Assembly: GCF_003344865.1 (NCBI RefSeq)
Contig: NZ_CP031165.1
Location: 682,001-746,000 of the forward strand
Direction of reading: 5' to 3'
Length of the DNA: 64,000 nt
Origin: Euzebya pacifica
GTDB taxonomy: Bacteria > Actinomycetota > Nitriliruptoria > Euzebyales > Euzebyaceae
In this document: piece after piece, positions 12,515 to 63,323 of the stretch
Position numbering within the stretch: position 1 is the first letter of the stretch
Layout: each line of letters opens with the position of its first letter
Made by a program: the position numbers and the translations under genes
Notes under the pieces: model-generated
The model's database searches: none
The model's input: the letters and a program-made list of their open reading frames with translations, nothing else
Told to the model about the DNA's origin: nothing

Positions 12515-12748
12515 TCACTCGATGACGGCCAGCACGGCGCCCTGGGCCACCCCGTCGCCCTCGGGGACGACATGCCGAAGCGTGCCGGAGGCCGGGGCAG
12601 GGACGTCGTTGGAGACCTTGTCGACCTGGACCTCCGCGATCACCTGACCCGCCTCGACGGTCTCGCCGTCGAGCGCGAACCAGGTGCCGACGACGCCCTC
12701 GATGTCGGGGTCCTTCGACATCACGGGGAACGTGACCTGGGTGCTCAT
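12515..12748 (-). CDS. Stand-alone lipoyl-attachment domain protein
   Basis: A 77-residue protein consisting of just one biotin/lipoyl domain. It has the lysine turn EVQVDKVSNDVPAPASGTL, with the DKV lipoylation site near residue 43, and the closing glycine-rich hairpin VPEGDGVAQGAVLAVIE. In normal aco or pdh clusters this domain is the first part of an E2 acyltransferase; here the stop follows directly and no catalytic domain is encoded downstream. It overlaps acoB-like by four bases. Its likely job is to carry the acyl group from the E1 proteins encoded just upstream. Confidence 0.85.
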   Translation of the reverse strand: MSTQVTFPVMSKDPDIEGVVGTWFALDGETVEAGQVIAEVQVDKVSNDVPAPASGTLRHVVPEGDGVAQGAVLAVIE

Positions 12749-13773
12749 GCCATCAGGTCCCGCACCGCCGCCGCGATCTTGTCGCGGGTGGGCAACACGC
12801 CGTGCTCCATCGGCCGGGCGTAGGGGATCGGGACGTCCGGAACGGCGAGTCGCCGCATCGGCTTCGCGAGCATCGTCGGGTCGGTCTCGGTGACGATCGC
12901 GGCGATCTCACCGGTCAGCCCGTAGCTGCGGTAGTCCTCGTCGACGACCAGCAGTCGGCCGGTCTTCGCCACGGACGCGAGGACGGTCTCGGTGTCCAGG
13001 GGCACCAGGCTGCGAAGGTCGACGACCTCCACGCTGATGCCGTCGGCCTCGAGGTCCTCGGCCACGTCCAGGCTGTGCTGGACCGACAGCGACAGCGTGA
13101 CGATGGTGACATCGGTGCCCTCCCTGGCGATCGCGGCCTCACCGATGGGGACGGTGTAGGACTCCTCCGGTACCGGCGCGATGGACCGTGGGTTCTTCTC
13201 CATCCACACCAAGCCCTGCGCGCCCTTGTGGAACAGGAACAGGACCGGGTTGTCGTCCCGGATGGCGGAGATCATCAGGCCCTTGGCGTCGTAGGGATTG
13301 GACGGCACCACGACCTTGATGCCGGGCAGGTGCGCGAACGTGCCCCACAGGCACTGGCTGTGCTGCGCGGCGTCGGAGTAGCCCGCGCCGACGGCAGCCA
13401 TCAGCACCATCGGGACCTTCACGGCGCCGCCGGACTCGTAGTGGATCTTGGCCATGTGGTTGGTGATCTGATCCATGCAGACGCCGTAGAAGTCGACGAA
13501 CATCAGCTCGACGACTGGCCGCAGCCCCTCGACGGCTGCGCCGATCCCGGCACCGATGAATCCTGTCTCGGAGATGGGGGTGTCGATGACCCGGTCGGCG
13601 CCGAACTCGCCGAAGAGGTCGGTCGTGGATCCGAAGATGCCGCCGTACGCGCCGACGTCCTCGCCCATGACGAAGACGTCGGGGTTGGTGCGCATCTCGG
13701 TGGCGATGCCCTCGGCCATCGCCTTGGCGGTGGTGATCCGGCGGACCGGGGCCTGGACTGTGGTGGTGCTCAT
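12745..13773 (-). CDS. acoB: 2-Oxoacid/acetoin dehydrogenase E1 beta subunit (AcoB-like)
   Basis: A 342-residue transketolase-pyrimidine-type subunit. The sequence shows ITTAKAMAEGIATEM, MGEDVGAYGGIFGST, DTPISETGFIGAGIGAAVEGLRPV and VPMVLMAAVGAGYSDAAQHSQ, ending in the C-terminal transketolase domain (SLVPLDTETVLASVAKTGRLLVVDED). It forms the E1 heterotetramer with the alpha subunit encoded just upstream. The acoX neighbour argues for acetoin or a related diketone/2-oxoacid as substrate. It is coupled to the lipoyl gene through an ATGA overlap. Confidence 0.85.
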   Translation of the reverse strand: MSTTTVQAPVRRITTAKAMAEGIATEMRTNPDVFVMGEDVGAYGGIFGSTTDLFGEFGADRVIDTPISETGFIGAGIGAAVEGLRPVVELMFVDFYGVCMDQITNHMAKIHYESGGAVKVPMVLMAAVGAGYSDAAQHSQCLWGTFAHLPGIKVVVPSNPYDAKGLMISAIRDDNPVLFLFHKGAQGLVWMEKNPRSIAPVPEESYTVPIGEAAIAREGTDVTIVTLSLSVQHSLDVAEDLEADGISVEVVDLRSLVPLDTETVLASVAKTGRLLVVDEDYRSYGLTGEIAAIVTETDPTMLAKPMRRLAVPDVPIPYARPMEHGVLPTRDKIAAAVRDLMA

Positions 13774-13796
13774 GATGATCTGTCCTCTCGGTTCGG

Positions 13797-14774
13797 CTAG
13801 GCGAAGACGTGCAGCAGGGCGTCGGCGGCGGTCGGTTCGGGACTCTCCTTGGCGAAGGCGATGGCGGCGTCGACCTCGGCATCGGCCTCTGCCTGGACCG
13901 ACTCCACGTCCTCGCTGGTCAGGAGCCCCCGGTCGATCAGCTCGGCGGCGTAGGCCGGGATCGGGTCTCGCTCGTCGACCGTGTCGAGCTCGGCGCCCCG
14001 GTAGGCCTGGGCGTCACCCTCGAAGTGGCCCCACAGCCGGAGGGTGTGGATCTCCAGCAGGCTCGGTCCCTCGCCGGCGCGGGCCCGTCGGATCGCCGCA
14101 CCGGCGGCATCGAAGACCGCCTCGACGTCGTTGTCCTCGACCCGCACGCCGGGGATGCCGTAGCCAGCCGCACGGTCGGCGTTGGAGGTGTTGGCCGTCG
14201 ACTGGGACCGGGGCACGGAGATGGCCCAGTCGTTGTCCTCGATGACGAACACGACGGGCAGGTTCCACAGGGCGGCGAGGTTCAGCGACTCGTGGAAGGC
14301 GCCTTGGTTGGCGGCGCCCTCACCGGCAACGGCGATGGCAACGTGGTCGGTGCCCTTCCGCTTGAAGGCCAGTGCCTGTCCGCAGGCCACGGGGTAGCCC
14401 TGGGCGATGATCCCGGAGCACGAGAAGTGGTTCTCCGGGTCGAACAGGTGCATGTGCCCTCCCTTGCCCTTGCACAGGCCGGTGGTGCGCCCGTAGATCT
14501 CCGCCGTCATCGCCTTCATGTCCACGCCATGTGCCAGCGCGAAGTGGTGAGGGCGGTGCGGCGCGGTGATGGCGTCGCCCTGCTTCAGATGGGCGGTGAC
14601 ACCCACGGCGGCAGGTTCCTGTCCGGCGGACAGGTGCATCTCGCCGGGGATGAGGCCGGCGCCGATGTCCCAGGCCGGCGTCTTGTCGGCGTGGTACTCC
14701 TGCAGGATCCGGGACTCGTAGCGGCGGATCCGCACCATCTGGCGGTACATGGCGAGTCGATCGAGGTCAGTCAT
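13797..14774 (-). CDS. acoA: 2-Oxoacid/acetoin dehydrogenase E1 alpha subunit (AcoA-like)
   Basis: A 325-residue dehydrogenase E1 component. It contains YRQMVRIRRYESRI at the N terminus, the phosphorylation-loop-like region GLCKGKGGHMHLFDPEN and the ThDP motif GEGAANQGAFHESLNLAALWNLPVVFVIEDN. The GEGAANQG...EDN pattern binds Mg-thiamine diphosphate. The length matches AcoA and PdhA. It lies between acoX-like and acoB-like with short gaps of 13 and 23 bp, so the four genes look like one operon read from about 15.9 kb. Confidence 0.88.
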   Translation of the reverse strand: MTDLDRLAMYRQMVRIRRYESRILQEYHADKTPAWDIGAGLIPGEMHLSAGQEPAAVGVTAHLKQGDAITAPHRPHHFALAHGVDMKAMTAEIYGRTTGLCKGKGGHMHLFDPENHFSCSGIIAQGYPVACGQALAFKRKGTDHVAIAVAGEGAANQGAFHESLNLAALWNLPVVFVIEDNDWAISVPRSQSTANTSNADRAAGYGIPGVRVEDNDVEAVFDAAGAAIRRARAGEGPSLLEIHTLRLWGHFEGDAQAYRGAELDTVDERDPIPAYAAELIDRGLLTSEDVESVQAEADAEVDAAIAFAKESPEPTAADALLHVFA

Positions 14775-14787
14775 CGGGTCTCCTTCT

Positions 14788-15900
14788 TCAGTGGGTCGGC
14801 TCTTGCGGTACTGAGGCCTGGAGGGCGACAGCCGGTCCTCGGGCCGGCTGGGTCGGTGGCGGTTGCGGACACGTGCGGTCGGCGCGGTCGGGGGAACGGC
14901 GCGGGGGGAGGGAGAGCAAGCCGGAGCAGGCGGCGTGTCGCATCGTCCGGGCCACGTCGATGACGACTGGGCCGTTGCCGTGGAGGGTCACCATGGGCAC
15001 GTCGGCTGGCCCGAACCGGAAGATGCGCTCGCCGTCGATGGCCAGGACACCAGCGGTGGCCGTCACTCGGATGGGTTGATTCGCGTGCAGGGTCTGGACC
15101 GCAGCGACGTCGACGTCGACCAACCTTCCCGGGGCGATGGGGGCGCGGACGCGTGCCACCGCAGGCTGCCCCAGCCGGACGATCAGCCCGTCGGCGTCGT
15201 CGCGGCCGACGGGCCGCAGGTGGGCACCGATCGCCGACAGCCCGATGCTGTGTGGCTCGGCGAGGCACAGGTACAGCTCGCAGACCTCGGCGGCATCGGT
15301 GACCGCGCCAGCTCCGGTGCCGTCGGCGCGGGTGACCGCGACGTCGACGACCGCGTGGTGGACGCGTGCGCCGTGCTGGACGGTCAGCCACCGGGCGGGC
15401 GTCCCGGCATCGACAGGGCGGACCCTGCCCAACGCGACGAGCCCTGCCGCGATCCCGGCGACGCTGGCCTCGGCAGGCTGCGGGAAGGCGTTGTTGGTCC
15501 CGGTCGACAGCGGCATCAACGGCGTGTCACCGCAGGCCGAGAGCACCTTGCGATTGGTGCCGTCGCCGCCGATGACGACGATCGCCCCGACCCCGGCGCG
15601 GACCATCGAGGTGACCGCGGAGACGGTGTCGACCGCCGTTTGGGTCACCGGATGGTTCACGAACGCCACCTCCGGCCAGGTGTCCGCCGACGGCCGGTCG
15701 ACCATCGAGGCGAGCCCTGCGGAGATGCCGCCGCCGTCCTGCATCGACAGGACACGCTCGACGCCCACGCTGCCGAGGCCCGCCAGCACCCGCCGGACGA
15801 TGTTGAGCTTGTCGTGGGTCGTCACCGCGGCACCGTCGGCGACGAGCCGTCGGATGTCGCGCGCGGACGCGGGGTTCGCGACGAGACCAACGACACCCAT
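14788..15900 (-). CDS. acoX: ATP-NAD kinase-like protein, AcoX type
   Basis: A 370-residue protein beginning MGVVGLVANPASARDIRRLV. It has the NAD-kinase signature VVIGGDGTNRKVLSACGDTPLMPLSTGTNNAF, where GGDG is the catalytic/nucleotide site. The second half (after about 150) matches AcoX of acetoin gene clusters rather than housekeeping NadK. AcoX's exact reaction is not established. It is the first gene of the acoX-A-B-lipoyl cluster. ATG 15900 is preferred to one 51 bases upstream because family similarity starts there. Confidence 0.8.
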   Translation of the reverse strand: MGVVGLVANPASARDIRRLVADGAAVTTHDKLNIVRRVLAGLGSVGVERVLSMQDGGGISAGLASMVDRPSADTWPEVAFVNHPVTQTAVDTVSAVTSMVRAGVGAIVVIGGDGTNRKVLSACGDTPLMPLSTGTNNAFPQPAEASVAGIAAGLVALGRVRPVDAGTPARWLTVQHGARVHHAVVDVAVTRADGTGAGAVTDAAEVCELYLCLAEPHSIGLSAIGAHLRPVGRDDADGLIVRLGQPAVARVRAPIAPGRLVDVDVAAVQTLHANQPIRVTATAGVLAIDGERIFRFGPADVPMVTLHGNGPVVIDVARTMRHAACSGLLSLPPRRSPDRADRTCPQPPPTQPARGPAVALQASVPQEPTH

Positions 15901-16042
15901 GACCCGGGCTCCATCTCCTCCCGGTCGGCTCCAGGGGAGGGCTGGCAGCATTGCACGGCCCGGGTGCGCGCACCACCCCTCCGGTTCGCTCGTGGGCGAC
16001 GTCGGCCCTTTAGCGCCGCAGTTCGGCGACCTGCTCGTCTGG

Positions 16043-16129
16043 CGGAGACGGTGGGATTCGAACCCACGGAGCCATTGCTGACTCGACGGTTTTCAAGACC
16101 GTTCCCTTCGTCCGCTCGGGCACGTCTCC
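16043..16129 (-). tRNA. tRNA-Ser (anticodon UGA)
   Basis: An 87-nt cloverleaf on the minus strand. The acceptor stem is GGAGACG with CGTCTCC, the anticodon loop is CTTGAAA (anticodon TGA), there is a long class II variable arm, and the T-arm is GGTTCGAATCC. Discriminator G; CCA is not encoded. Confidence 0.93.
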
Positions 16130-45574: not shown

Positions 45575-46465
45575 TCACCCGGTCCACGGGCCGGGACGGC
45601 CGACCGCACGCCCCGCGGCCACCAGGGCCTCGTCGAGCTGGACCTCCAGGGGGTGGCCGGCCACCCGCGCGGTCAGCAGGCCGGCGACCAGCGCGTCACC
45701 TGCCCCGACCGGATCGACGGCGCCAGTCACGGCAACGGCGCTGCGGCGCAGGACCGTCCGGCCGTCCGACCACACCACCCCGCCTGCGCCCCGGCTGACC
45801 AACACCTCGCCGGTGCGGGCGCCCAGGCACGAGGCGGCCTCCTCGACGTCCTCGCGACCGGCCAGGATGCGGGCCTCGTCGGCGTTGGGAGTCAGCAGGA
45901 CGCGCGGGGGCAACATCGTCAGGAACGCGTCGGCCCCGATGCGACGCAGCGGGGCTGCCGAGGCCGGGTCGACGCTGACCGGGATGCCGGCCTCGCGTGC
46001 TCGCTGCATCGCATGCAGGCCGGCCGCACGCGTCGTCGGGGACAGCAGGGCATACCCGCTGACGTGCACGTGCGCGGCGTCGTCGAGCCAACCGGACCGA
46101 AGATCGCCGGGGCCGAGGTGGGCGCTGGCCCCGCGGTCGGTCAGCATGTCGCGATCGTCGGCCCCCACGAGCGCGACGACGGTGCCGGTCGAACGATCGG
46201 GATCACGCACCACGTGCGCCGCGACCCCGTGGCGATGGAGCGAATCGGTGAGGAAGGTCCCGGCCACGTCGTCGCCCACCCTTGCCACGAGCCGTGCCCG
46301 ACCACCCTGATCGGCGATGGCGCGGGCCACGTTGGCTGCCGCCCCGCCGCTGCGCCAGCGAATCGTCGACGCAGTGTCGCTGCCCGGCTGGACGGACTCC
46401 AGGGGGCGGACGACCACGTCGACCAGCGCATCCCCGACCACGACGACGGTGGCCGGACGAGTCAT
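45575..46465 (-). CDS. psuK: PfkB-family kinase, probable pseudouridine kinase
   Basis: A 296-residue ribokinase-like protein: [32 protein letters not shown] as substrate/ribose motif and the catalytic/anion-hole motif [15 protein letters not shown] with the base Asp in GAGD. It should phosphorylate pseudouridine at the 5' position, the step before PsuG. The assignment depends on its ATGA overlap with psuG directly upstream; by sequence alone it is a PfkB kinase. Confidence 0.83.
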
Positions 46466-47394
46466 GCCCGACGGCTCGTCGCGCGGGCCACGGCGATGTC
46501 GGCGGCCAGGGCCGCGTTGCGTTCGACCACGCGGATGTTGACCCGCAGGCTCTCACCCCCGGTCGCGGTGTGGAAGTGGTCCAGCAGGAACGGGGTGACC
46601 TGCTTGCCGCGGATCCGGCGGGACTGCAGCAGGGCCAGGCCGGAGTGCAGGACCCGGTCGTGCATGGTCGGGTCGAGCTGTTCGTCCTGCGGGATGGGGT
46701 TGGCGACGACCACGGCGCGGTCGTCCAGCCCGAGCCCGGTCATGTGGTCCATGACGGCGACGACGTCCTCGGCGGTGTCGATTCGCCAGTCCAGCGGTTC
46801 CTTGCTGGAGTGCAGGTAGAAACCGGGGAAGGCCTCGGTGCGGAAACCCAGGACGGGCACGCCGAGCGATTCCAACCGCTCGAGGGTGGCGGCGACGTCG
46901 AGGACCGACTTCACCCCGGCGCAGACGACGGCCATCGGTGTCCCGGCCAGCGCGGAGAGGTCCGCGGACTCGTCCCACGAGTCACGCGCCTCGCGATGCA
47001 CGCCGCCGAGGCCCCCGGTGGCGAAGACGCCGATCCCGGCCAGCGCCGCCAGGTGGGCGGTCGAGGCGACGGTGGTCGCGCCGGTCCGACCGAGGGCTGC
47101 GGCGACGCCGAGGTCGCGGATCGACAGCTTGGCGACCTCCTCGTCGGTGGCGATCCGTTCGAGCGCCTCGGGGTCCAGTCCCACCCTGGGCTGGCCGTCG
47201 ACGACGGCGATCGTGGCCGGGACGGCCCCGGCCTTGCGGACGATCGCCTCGAGTTCCCGTGCCACGGAGAGGTTCTGCCCTCGCGGCAGGCCGTGGGCGA
47301 TCAGCGTGGACTCCAGCGCCACCACCCCGGTGCCGTCGGCAAGCGCCTGCTGGACCTCGTCGCTGACGAGCAACGGGTGGGGCACGGCGGTCAT
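46462..47394 (-). CDS. psuG: Pseudouridine-5'-phosphate glycosidase
   Basis: A 310-residue enzyme starting [34 protein letters not shown]. It has [72 protein letters not shown] and [14 protein letters not shown]; these blocks are characteristic of PsuG/YeiN. It cleaves the C-C glycosidic bond of pseudouridine 5'-phosphate to uracil and ribose 5-phosphate. With psuK it forms the complete salvage route. It is divergent from the TPP-riboswitch gene. Confidence 0.93.
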
Positions 47395-47446
47395 TGGTCT
47401 GGACTCCTTGGACGGGGCGAACTTCGCCACCCTAGACTCGACGGCA

Positions 47447-47541
47447 CGCCGGGGGAGCCAACGGCTGAGAGTGCACCGTCCGACCGGGACGCGAAGCAGA
47501 CCCCACGAACCTGATCCGGTTAGCACCGGCGAAGGGAGCGC
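47447..47541 (+). ncRNA. TPP riboswitch (THI element)
   Basis: The conserved THI core is present: GGGGGAGCCaacGGCTGAGAGTG on the pyrimidine-sensing arm, then ACCCCacGAACCTGATCCGG, TTAGCACCGGCGAAGGGA on the pyrophosphate-sensing side. It ends about seven bases before the ATG of the symporter gene, so it probably controls translation start by hiding the ribosome-binding region (ggcgaagggagcg) when thiamine diphosphate is bound. Confidence 0.95.
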
Positions 47542-47547
47542 GAACCA

Positions 47548-48984
47548 ATGGTGGCAACTGCATTCGGCGTCGGGATCGTCCTCGTGACCCTGATCGCATT
47601 CGTCGTCCTCGGCCTGCGGGCTGGCCGGGGTACCGACCTCGACGAGTGGACGACGGCTCGCAACAGCCAGTCCGCGACGACGTTGGGGCTGTCGTTCCTG
47701 GCTGCTGGCATGGGTGCCTGGATCCTGTTCGCCCCACCCGAGGTGGGTGCAGGGGTCGGCCTGGTCGGCCTGCTCGGATACGCCGTCGGTGGTGCCCTGC
47801 CGGTGATCCTGTTCGCGGCGCTGGGACGCCGCATCCGCACCGCGGTGCCGCAGGGCCAGTCGTTGGGACAGTTCGCCCGGCTGCGCTACGGCCGGCCGTT
47901 CGCCGCGTGGGTCTTCGCGGTGTCGGTGGCCTACATGTTCCTGTTCGTGACCGCCGAGCTGACGGCGGTCGCCGGGGTCACCGGCATCGTTGCGGGTGTC
48001 GACGCCCGCTTCACCGTCGTCGCGGTGGCGCTGGCGACGCTGGCCTACACCAGCGTGGGTGGGCTGCGGGCGTCGCTGGTCACCGATCGCTGGCAGGCCG
48101 GCCTGATCGTGGCGTTGCTCGCTGTGGGGTTCGTCGCCGTCGTGTCGTCGTTGTCCTCGCCCGGTGAGGCCATCACGGGCAGCGGGCTGCTGGGGGTCGA
48201 CCGCATCGGCATCGAGGTGGCCCTGACCCTCACCATCGCCGTGACCGCAGCCAACATGTTCCACCAGGGCTACTGGCAGCGAGTCTGGGCCGCCAAGGAC
48301 GAACGGGCGCTGCGTCGTGGCGCGTGGCTGGGCGCGGGGCTCACGGTGCCGGTCATCCTGCTGGTCGGACTGTTCGGCATCGTCGCTGCCGGGTCCGGGC
48401 AGGGCCTGGACGTGTCCCCGGTGCCGTTCTTCGCGATGACCACGGGCCTGCCGGCCGTCATCGGCGGGATCGTCGTGGTCCTGGGCGTCGCGCTCGTCGC
48501 CTCGTCGGTGGACACCCTGGAGACCGGCCTGTTCTCGTTGGTGGGGGCCGAGGTGCCCGGCATGAAGCTCGGTGGTGCGCGCCTGGTGACGGTGGGGCTG
48601 ATGCTTCCCGCGGTCGTGGTGGCCTTCCAGGGCTTCAGTGTCCTGCGCCTGTTCCTCATCGCCGACCTGCTGTGCGCCGGGGTCGTCGTGCCGCTGCTGG
48701 CCGGGCTGTGGCCCCGCGCCACCTCCGCCGGCGCCATCAGCGGCGCGGTCGCTGGCCTGGTCGGTGCCGTCCTCGGCGGCACGGTGACCACGGGTTCGTT
48801 GGCCGAGGGGTTCGAGCTGGCGACCATCCCGGGCGCCACACCCACCCTTCCCCCCTTCGCGGGGGCGCTCCTCTGCTCGGCGATCGTGACCGTGCTCGTG
48901 TGCTTGGCCGGGCGGCGCGAGGTCGTGCTCGACGACATCTCCGAGGGGCTGGTCGCCGTCGACCGGGAGACCGTCGGCGCCTGA
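47548..48984 (+). CDS. Sodium:solute symporter under a TPP riboswitch; probable thiamine or precursor importer
   Basis: A 478-residue integral membrane protein with about 13 hydrophobic segments and the SSS-family pattern ([81 protein letters not shown]). It starts seven bases after the riboswitch. Established knowledge: SSS-family genes with THI elements have been proposed as thiamine-related transporters. No ThiT, YkoE or Thi biosynthesis gene lies nearby, so a role in thiamine or HMP uptake is inference from the riboswitch alone. Confidence 0.88.
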
Positions 48985-49000: not shown

Positions 49001-49489
49001 TCAGCTGGGCGGGTTGCCCGATGGGCCCTTCGCGCGAGCGCGTTCGACGGCGGCGAACGCCTCGCGCAGCTCGGCCAGCCATTCCTTCTCGTTGGCGCCC
49101 ACCAGCCGGACGCACCACGCCAGCGCGTCGGAGCGGGACCGGGCGATGCCCGCGTCGATGAGGGTGTCCAGCACCCGGCGTTCGGGCAGGCGGAGCCGCG
49201 TCATCGCGGGCGTGGACACCGTCGTGAACAGCGCCGTGGTCGGGCCGCAGCGGGCGCCCCACGACACCTTCCGCTCGAACCGTCCCTCCGCCCGTCGGGC
49301 GATCTGCATGCGGCGTTCCCGCGTCTCCTCCCGGAAGCGGGTGATGCACTGCTCGTCGGGTTCGTCGGCGACAGGGCGCAGCGTGCCGATGACCAGGATC
49401 TCCTCGCGGTCGCAGGTCACCTCGATCGCGTCGAACCAGCCAGCAGGAACCTCCTGCCGGATGTGATCAGCGATGGCGTCACGGTCCAC
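49001..49489 (-). CDS. Conserved small protein of unknown function
   Basis: About 162 residues from a GTG at 49489 ([37 protein letters not shown]). The middle has [20 protein letters not shown]. The C-terminal part reads [58 protein letters not shown], which looks like a ribbon-helix-helix-type or helical motif. I do not know a function. The start is uncertain; the frame continues to 49552. It lies between the SSS transporter (convergent) and hsp20 (divergent). Confidence 0.6.
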
Positions 49490-49569
49490 GGCCGCAACGG
49501 TAGCCCGCCACGGCCGAAAAGAGGGTTGCACGCCGCGTGCCGGCGCGTACATTTATCTGCGTCCATAGG

Positions 49570-63206: not shown

Positions 63207-63323
<117 letters not shown>

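Follow-up and report, generated by a model that had tools for sequence, protein, structure and literature searches.

Sodium:solute symporters (SSS) encoded behind TPP riboswitches are known from several groups of organisms. In SAR11, ThiV (SAR11_0811 / PB7211_402) is an SSS protein behind a TPP riboswitch in a host that lacks ThiC and retains thiazole synthesis (PMC11452348, PMC10881298). HMP uptake by SAR11 has been measured, with ThiV as the likely carrier (PMC11452348), and in Pelagibacterales thiV adjoins both the riboswitch and tenA (PMC10881298). McRose 2014 (PMC4260697) equates SSSP with THIV of Methylobacillus, describes TPP riboswitches in bacteria, SAR11 among them, and places Marinobacter, Methylobacillus ThiV, SAR11 and haloarchaeal members in one family with SSSP, for which HMP/AmMP or thiamine was proposed as the SSSP/ThiV cargo.

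The algal and fungal SSSP/SSSQ proteins, including diatom SSSP and Candida Dur31, are likewise SSS proteins linked to TPP aptamers (PMC4260697). The eukaryotic SSSP and Dur31 proteins differ in that they act on thiamine (PMC9544697, PMC5997356), and the eukaryotic SSSP/SSSQ aptamers differ in lying in UTRs or an intron, where they act on splicing (Candida) or are unresponsive (diatoms). Diatoms need SSSP to take up thiamine, and it was to thiamine that the predicted diatom TPP aptamers failed to respond (PMC9544697). Because the riboswitch-SSS link and the tenA link have both been described before (PMC4260697, PMC11452348, PMC10881298), neither is new here. Our search of the literature, which included thiamine in Euzebya and Nitriliruptor, found no account of ThiV/SSSP in this actinobacterial lineage.

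The locus described here lies in a 64,000-nucleotide stretch of the Euzebya pacifica genome, which we call the window, and its features are collected in Table 1. With a probability of about 0.75, we consider the product of its symporter gene to be a ThiV/SSSP-like sodium:solute symporter, translated only when TPP is scarce, whose cargo is the pyrimidine half of thiamine (HMP, and possibly the amino and formylamino forms of it as well). By description, the arrangement resembles that of SAR11 ThiV; the SAR11 protein is alphaproteobacterial, whereas the window gene is actinobacterial.

Table 1. Features of the TPP-controlled symporter locus (positions in the window).
Feature	Position	Strand	Basis
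Likely -10 promoter hexamer TAGACT	47433..47438	+	Sequence; TANNNT box conserved in leaders of the class
TPP riboswitch (THI element)	47441..47555	+	RF00059 match
CUGAGA motif of the TPP aptamer	47465..47470	+	Sequence; invariant in 32 aligned leaders
ACCUGAUCCGG, second aptamer arm, 5' side	47509..47519	+	Sequence; nearly invariant in 32 leaders
Shine-Dalgarno-like GGGAG within the aptamer (3' part), 9 bases ahead of the ATG	47534..47538	+	Sequence
Short closing stem P1, 3' strand (paired to 47443-47449), ending next to the start codon	47540..47546	+	MFE fold
SSS-family (LeuT-fold) symporter, 478 aa, ThiV/SSSP-like	47548..48984	+	Sub-threshold profiles; AlphaFold model; homologues with THI leaders

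In the proposed mechanism, plentiful TPP would close the aptamer and hide the ribosome-binding site; as TPP falls, the site would open and the importer would be made. The pyrimidine would then enter with sodium via the symporter, while TenA_E and TenA_C would turn breakdown products into HMP. ThiD would phosphorylate HMP, ThiE would join the product to the thiazole phosphate made by ThiG, and ThiL would make TPP, closing the loop.

The riboswitch itself is confirmed. In a 221-base search, RF00059 matched along its full length (model positions 1-105 of 105) with 47.4 bits and an E-value of 1.3e-8, which bears out the preliminary description's placement of a THI element ahead of an SSS gene. A search of the whole 6.37-Mb genome with the same model returned the importer leader as its only TPP match (E 8.7e-8). 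The score falls below the Rfam gathering cut-off of 54.3 bits, which is a reporting threshold and not a defining trait, and a standard Rfam gathering scan is silent on this leader for that reason. Several orthologous leaders exceed the cut-off, with scores of up to 65.8 bits (G020) and, for example, 64.5 bits in G010. The element is therefore real, far beyond chance, yet not the "textbook" example it was first taken for: in addition to the low score, it has a short P1 stem, and the leader shows no greater folding stability than shuffled sequences (z +1.13).

The MFE fold of the leader has the five-helix TPP shape. Its P1 stem comprises three pairs, CGC/GCG (47447-47449 / 47540-47542), and two more (GG/CC) beyond an internal loop. 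The distance to the ATG is 5 bases from the end of the inner P1 strand and 1 base from the outer pair, so that the earlier figure of seven bases between element and start is roughly right. To compare leaders, we aligned 32 of them from actinobacteria and proteobacteria, 21 of the 23 found in the class and 11 others; the G030 and G015 leaders, with a degenerate 5' part, were excluded, and the L092 row is the G007 locus, on the same contig. The CUGAGA and ACCUGAUC...GG cores are both present in the window leader and are invariant or nearly so in the alignment; the CUGAGA motif belongs to the ligand pocket of the aptamer. At least one of the 32 leaders shows a change on both sides of the pair at 7 of the 20 consensus pairs. 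In the excluded G030 leader (L008), repeated GGTAGTGACC segments replace the usual P1/P2 strand in the 5' half and the 3' half is intact; despite the altered 5' half, this leader still scores 45.2 bits against RF00059.

Upstream, 22 of the 23 orthologous class leaders have a TANNNT box that starts 17-24 bases before the G-rich 5' strand, and the aptamer is therefore probably the whole 5' leader. From the putative -10 hexamer, transcription is likely to begin at or near the aptamer's first base. Downstream, we tabulated the distance from GGAGG[AG]AG to the chosen start for 26 named relatives: it is 6 bases in 22 and 8 bases in one, and the motif is absent in three. The position of GGGAG inside the aptamer, together with the end of P1 near the ATG, suggests translational control by a masked ribosome-binding site.

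The symporter scores poorly against curated profiles. TIGR00813 gave 39.9 bits against a cut-off of 184 for the 478-residue ORF, and PF00474 (Pfam SSF) gave 20.9 bits against 22.8; these curated cut-offs are reporting thresholds and do not define the family. The AlphaFold model (pLDDT 84.8, pTM 0.86) shows the LeuT fold of the SSS type and matches solved SSS structures with Z-scores of up to 36, including SiaT (5nv9; Z 34.0, 438 residues aligned), CHT1 (9bim; Z 35.0) and DUR3 (9vim_B; Z 35.7). Because a confident model matches solved SSS structures, the original assignment to the SSS family stands.

For ThiV, Tyr78, an acidic residue at 139 and Phe254(-His) have been singled out, in SiaT numbering (PMC11452348). 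The window family has invariant residues Y78, E137 and F238-H239, which may be their counterparts, judging by their matching order and by their placement in the model, where the helices concerned are plausible ones. In the phylogenetic tree, the window protein groups with its genus (100/100) inside a group of 41 rows (99/100); the tree omits the truncated class proteins of G006, G020 and G052 and contains one long row of unlike make-up (G009). PMC4260697 names relatives in Marinobacter and haloarchaea, by way of which the window symporter is indirectly linked to the ThiV/SSSP family, and we describe it as ThiV/SSSP-like. The initial view that it belongs to no known kind of thiamine carrier has to be given up, since THI-linked SSS transporters are known as ThiV, SSSP, SSSQ and Dur31 (PMC4260697, PMC11452348, PMC9544697, PMC5997356).

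What the carrier is expected to import follows from the pathway genes of its host. Genome searches with ThiC, TPK and ThiB returned no match in E. pacifica, and ThiG, ThiD and ThiL each gave one strong match and TenA two; thiO, thiS and thiE lie beside thiG. With the genes for the thiazole, for coupling and for phosphorylation present, and with no ThiC, TPK or ThiB, the pyrimidine moiety is therefore the expected cargo. The preliminary proposal of an importer for thiamine, HMP or thiazole holds as regards a TPP-controlled importer of the thiamine pathway; it is narrowed to the pyrimidine, and the gene set of the genome disfavours thiazole.

Across the class, strong homologues of the symporter are present in 23 of 66 genomes; 25 match at E <= 1e-10, two of which, 29-31% identical, are not counted among the 23. 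A THI-type leader was identified in all 23 carriers, with Infernal in 22 and by motif only in one (G015), and the 22 Infernal matches overlap the matched part of the gene or sit within 21 bases of it. ThiC was found in 3 of the 66 genomes (63 without it, some genomes being incomplete). From gene content, dependence on HMP or thiamine looks like the rule in the class, and we predict that E. pacifica and most of the class depend on pyrimidine or thiamine from others.

ThiG accompanies the symporter in 22 of 23 carriers versus 15 of 43 non-carriers (p 1e-6; the 66 genomes are not independent), and among 33 near-complete genomes in 13 of 13 versus 6 of 20 (p 5e-5). Within families the association is weaker (p 0.09 in f2 and 0.011 in f5), which suggests that part of it may reflect shared ancestry. 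TPK shows the opposite pattern, with 4 of the 23 carriers against 27 of the 43 others. In 30 of the 31 genomes that have TPK, a TPP match is found no more than 300 bases away, and 26 of the 28 ThiB-bearing genomes also have TPK; in G041, for instance, a TPP match (L177, G041:C7) is followed by a TPK-ThiB-ThiP-ThiQ-like operon. Like the symporter, ThiBPQ with TPK represents TPP-controlled acquisition of vitamin B1; it differs in pairing an ABC thiamine importer with thiamine pyrophosphokinase, and neither TPK nor ThiB is present in the window genome. For the TPP matches of G042 and G053, the ORFs scanned behind them gave no informative family.

The opposite patterns of TPK and ThiG thus point to two TPP-controlled supply routes in the class, one predicted to combine thiazole synthesis with a ThiV-like symporter and the other ThiBPQ with TPK; the symporter belongs to the route for which the pyrimidine alone is needed. 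It is not the only solution, however, as 13 class genomes with ThiG and without ThiC have no symporter.

Gene neighbourhoods of the relatives connect the symporter with thiamine genes repeatedly. The order THI-SSS-thiE-thiO-thiS-thiG is found in G041 and again in G040, and SSS-thiO-thiS-thiG in G048. By their coordinates, tenA genes follow the SSS gene in G030, G007 and G015. A tenA-tenA-SSS arrangement occurs in all six members of another actinobacterial family (f15), with an Rfam TPP match ahead of the two tenA genes in both f15 loci tested (L086 and L087), and both haloarchaeal plasmids examined carry thiaminase II-TenA-"sodium:proline symporter". At the window locus itself, the symporter gene has no thi neighbours. 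A variant layout was seen at L029 (G002:C105), where a second TPP match and a short SSS fragment are followed by a tenA pair and the intact SSS gene lies on another contig.

The paired TenA proteins differ at one aligned position, where one has Cys and the other Glu, a difference that marks the TenA_C and TenA_E forms. The window genome has such a Cys/Glu pair, at a place other than the symporter locus. TenA_C converts AmMP to HMP, and TenA_E has been tied to the use of FAMP (PMC10470507). Only tentatively do we suggest that the symporter and the TenA_C/TenA_E pair form a TPP-controlled salvage module, leading from FAMP, AmMP and HMP to TPP, that is common to ThiC-less actinobacteria of the class and to haloarchaea. 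If true, this would name a carrier for the uptake of AmMP/FAMP, a question posed in PMC10470507.

A narrower form of the pyrimidine reading would take AmMP or FAMP, products of thiamine breakdown, as the main cargo. The Cys and Glu forms in neighbouring tenA pairs, the similar pair in the window genome and the tight tenA-tenA-SSS operons of actinobacteria and haloarchaea all speak for it. We nevertheless regard it as rather unlikely, given that G041 and G040 combine the gene with thiE-thiO-thiS-thiG and have no TenA match in the genome, that the tenA pair of the window genome sits away from the symporter, and that HMP, but not AmMP, supports the growth of SAR11 at pM-nM concentrations (PMC4260697).

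Import of intact thiamine in place of HMP is unlikely. Thiaminase II (TenA) hydrolyses thiamine, and could in principle release HMP from thiamine that has been imported. The eukaryotic relatives, Candida Dur31 (PMC5997356) and diatom SSSP (PMC9544697), also act on thiamine. Against this cargo, the window genome lacks ThiB as well as TPK, the sole thiamine kinase searched for; ThiL acts on thiamine monophosphate, so that free thiamine would need another kinase; and in the class TPK keeps company with ThiB and is less frequent among symporter carriers than among the other genomes, as given above.

That the protein transports an unrelated solute such as proline behind a decayed riboswitch is very improbable. 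The sub-cut-off riboswitch score and weak P1 would agree with decay, and the haloarchaeal genes are annotated as sodium:proline symporters; the aptamer core, however, is conserved between genera and phyla, and relatives stand in operons with thi and tenA genes. Transport of proline or pantothenate was rejected on this thi/tenA context together with a profile search in which neither PutP nor PanF matched the window protein at E <= 0.01. Import of the thiazole moiety, which TPP control alone would allow, is hardly tenable and was rejected, since thiO, thiS and thiG are present in the window genome and ThiG in 22 of 23 carriers. Uptake of the pyrimidine half of thiamine accordingly remains our preferred reading.

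Relatives were also sought in wider collections. In a sample of the phylum, 20 of 396 genomes had a symporter match at E <= 1e-20. A wider contig collection yielded 315 confirmed loci, and the analysis was carried out on the best 80 of these 315, mostly from Halomonadaceae and Marinobacter, with some from Comamonadaceae and some from the window's own class. For the survey of further THI-linked SSS genes that had been proposed at the outset, a THI regular expression matched directly upstream in 69 of these best 80 loci, besides the 23 of 23 class carriers. Seven of the 80 (L092, L093, L095, L099, L103, L142 and L153) apparently overlap class genomes already counted; six of them have the motif and L095 does not. 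L117 was missed by the expression, though it does have both cores, CUGAGA and ACCUGA. At the gathering cut-off, Rfam found a TPP element in 11 of the 16 loci given to it, with no match in L113, L117, L118, L155 and L159, all from Marinobacter. No relative of the symporter was confirmed on viral contigs.

Among the best 80 of 315, nine Marinobacter loci have no THI motif upstream (L113, L118, L140, L143, L144, L152, L155, L159 and L163), and the seven of these that were rechecked had no TPP match at E <= 0.01. Three motif-less loci are included in the tree, where they form one clade (100/98), which suggests loss of the riboswitch. These nine relatives indicate that the coupling of riboswitch and symporter can be lost. 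No thiamine genes were seen among the genes scanned in the neighbourhood of one riboswitch-less Marinobacter symporter, and in the Marinobacter loci examined thiG was not seen within 4 kb, unlike the neighbour described for several Marinobacters in PMC4260697. In the neighbourhood search that covered these and the f15 loci, thiE matches rest on the E. coli query. Outside the class, 24 of 26 genomes tested with symporter relatives have ThiC. The gene is therefore not tied to HMP auxotrophy everywhere, and in these genomes its role would be salvage rather than replacement.

The case leaves the known abilities of riboswitches and SSS transporters unchanged. It carries the ThiV/SSSP story beyond marine plankton into another actinobacterial lineage and offers a candidate carrier in tenA operons.

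Several other features of the window were recorded. The suggestion that several ThDP enzymes in it fit a need for the cofactor carries little weight: one ThDP enzyme complex, an E1 alpha/beta pair at 12748-14771, was identified among the 10 window ORFs scanned, and any organism of this sort requires the cofactor in any case. The ORF at 14788-15951, a candidate ThDP enzyme by its match to a GDG...NN motif, was rejected as NAD-kinase-like.

Divergent from the importer, and with a short promoter region in common with it, an Indigoidine_A (PsuG-like) gene and a PfkB-family kinase gene occupy 45575-47394. Indigoidine_A/PsuG is the pseudouridine-5'-phosphate glycosidase family, and the pair looks like a pseudouridine breakdown operon. 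Downstream of the importer and convergent with it, the ORF at 49001-49552 (-) matches NF058631, the ATP-binding transcription factor AbmR, with 206 bits against a cut-off of 160. Elsewhere in the window, tRNAs are found at 16043, 18401, 35318 and 50672, and a bacterial small SRP RNA at 63217-63316 (+).
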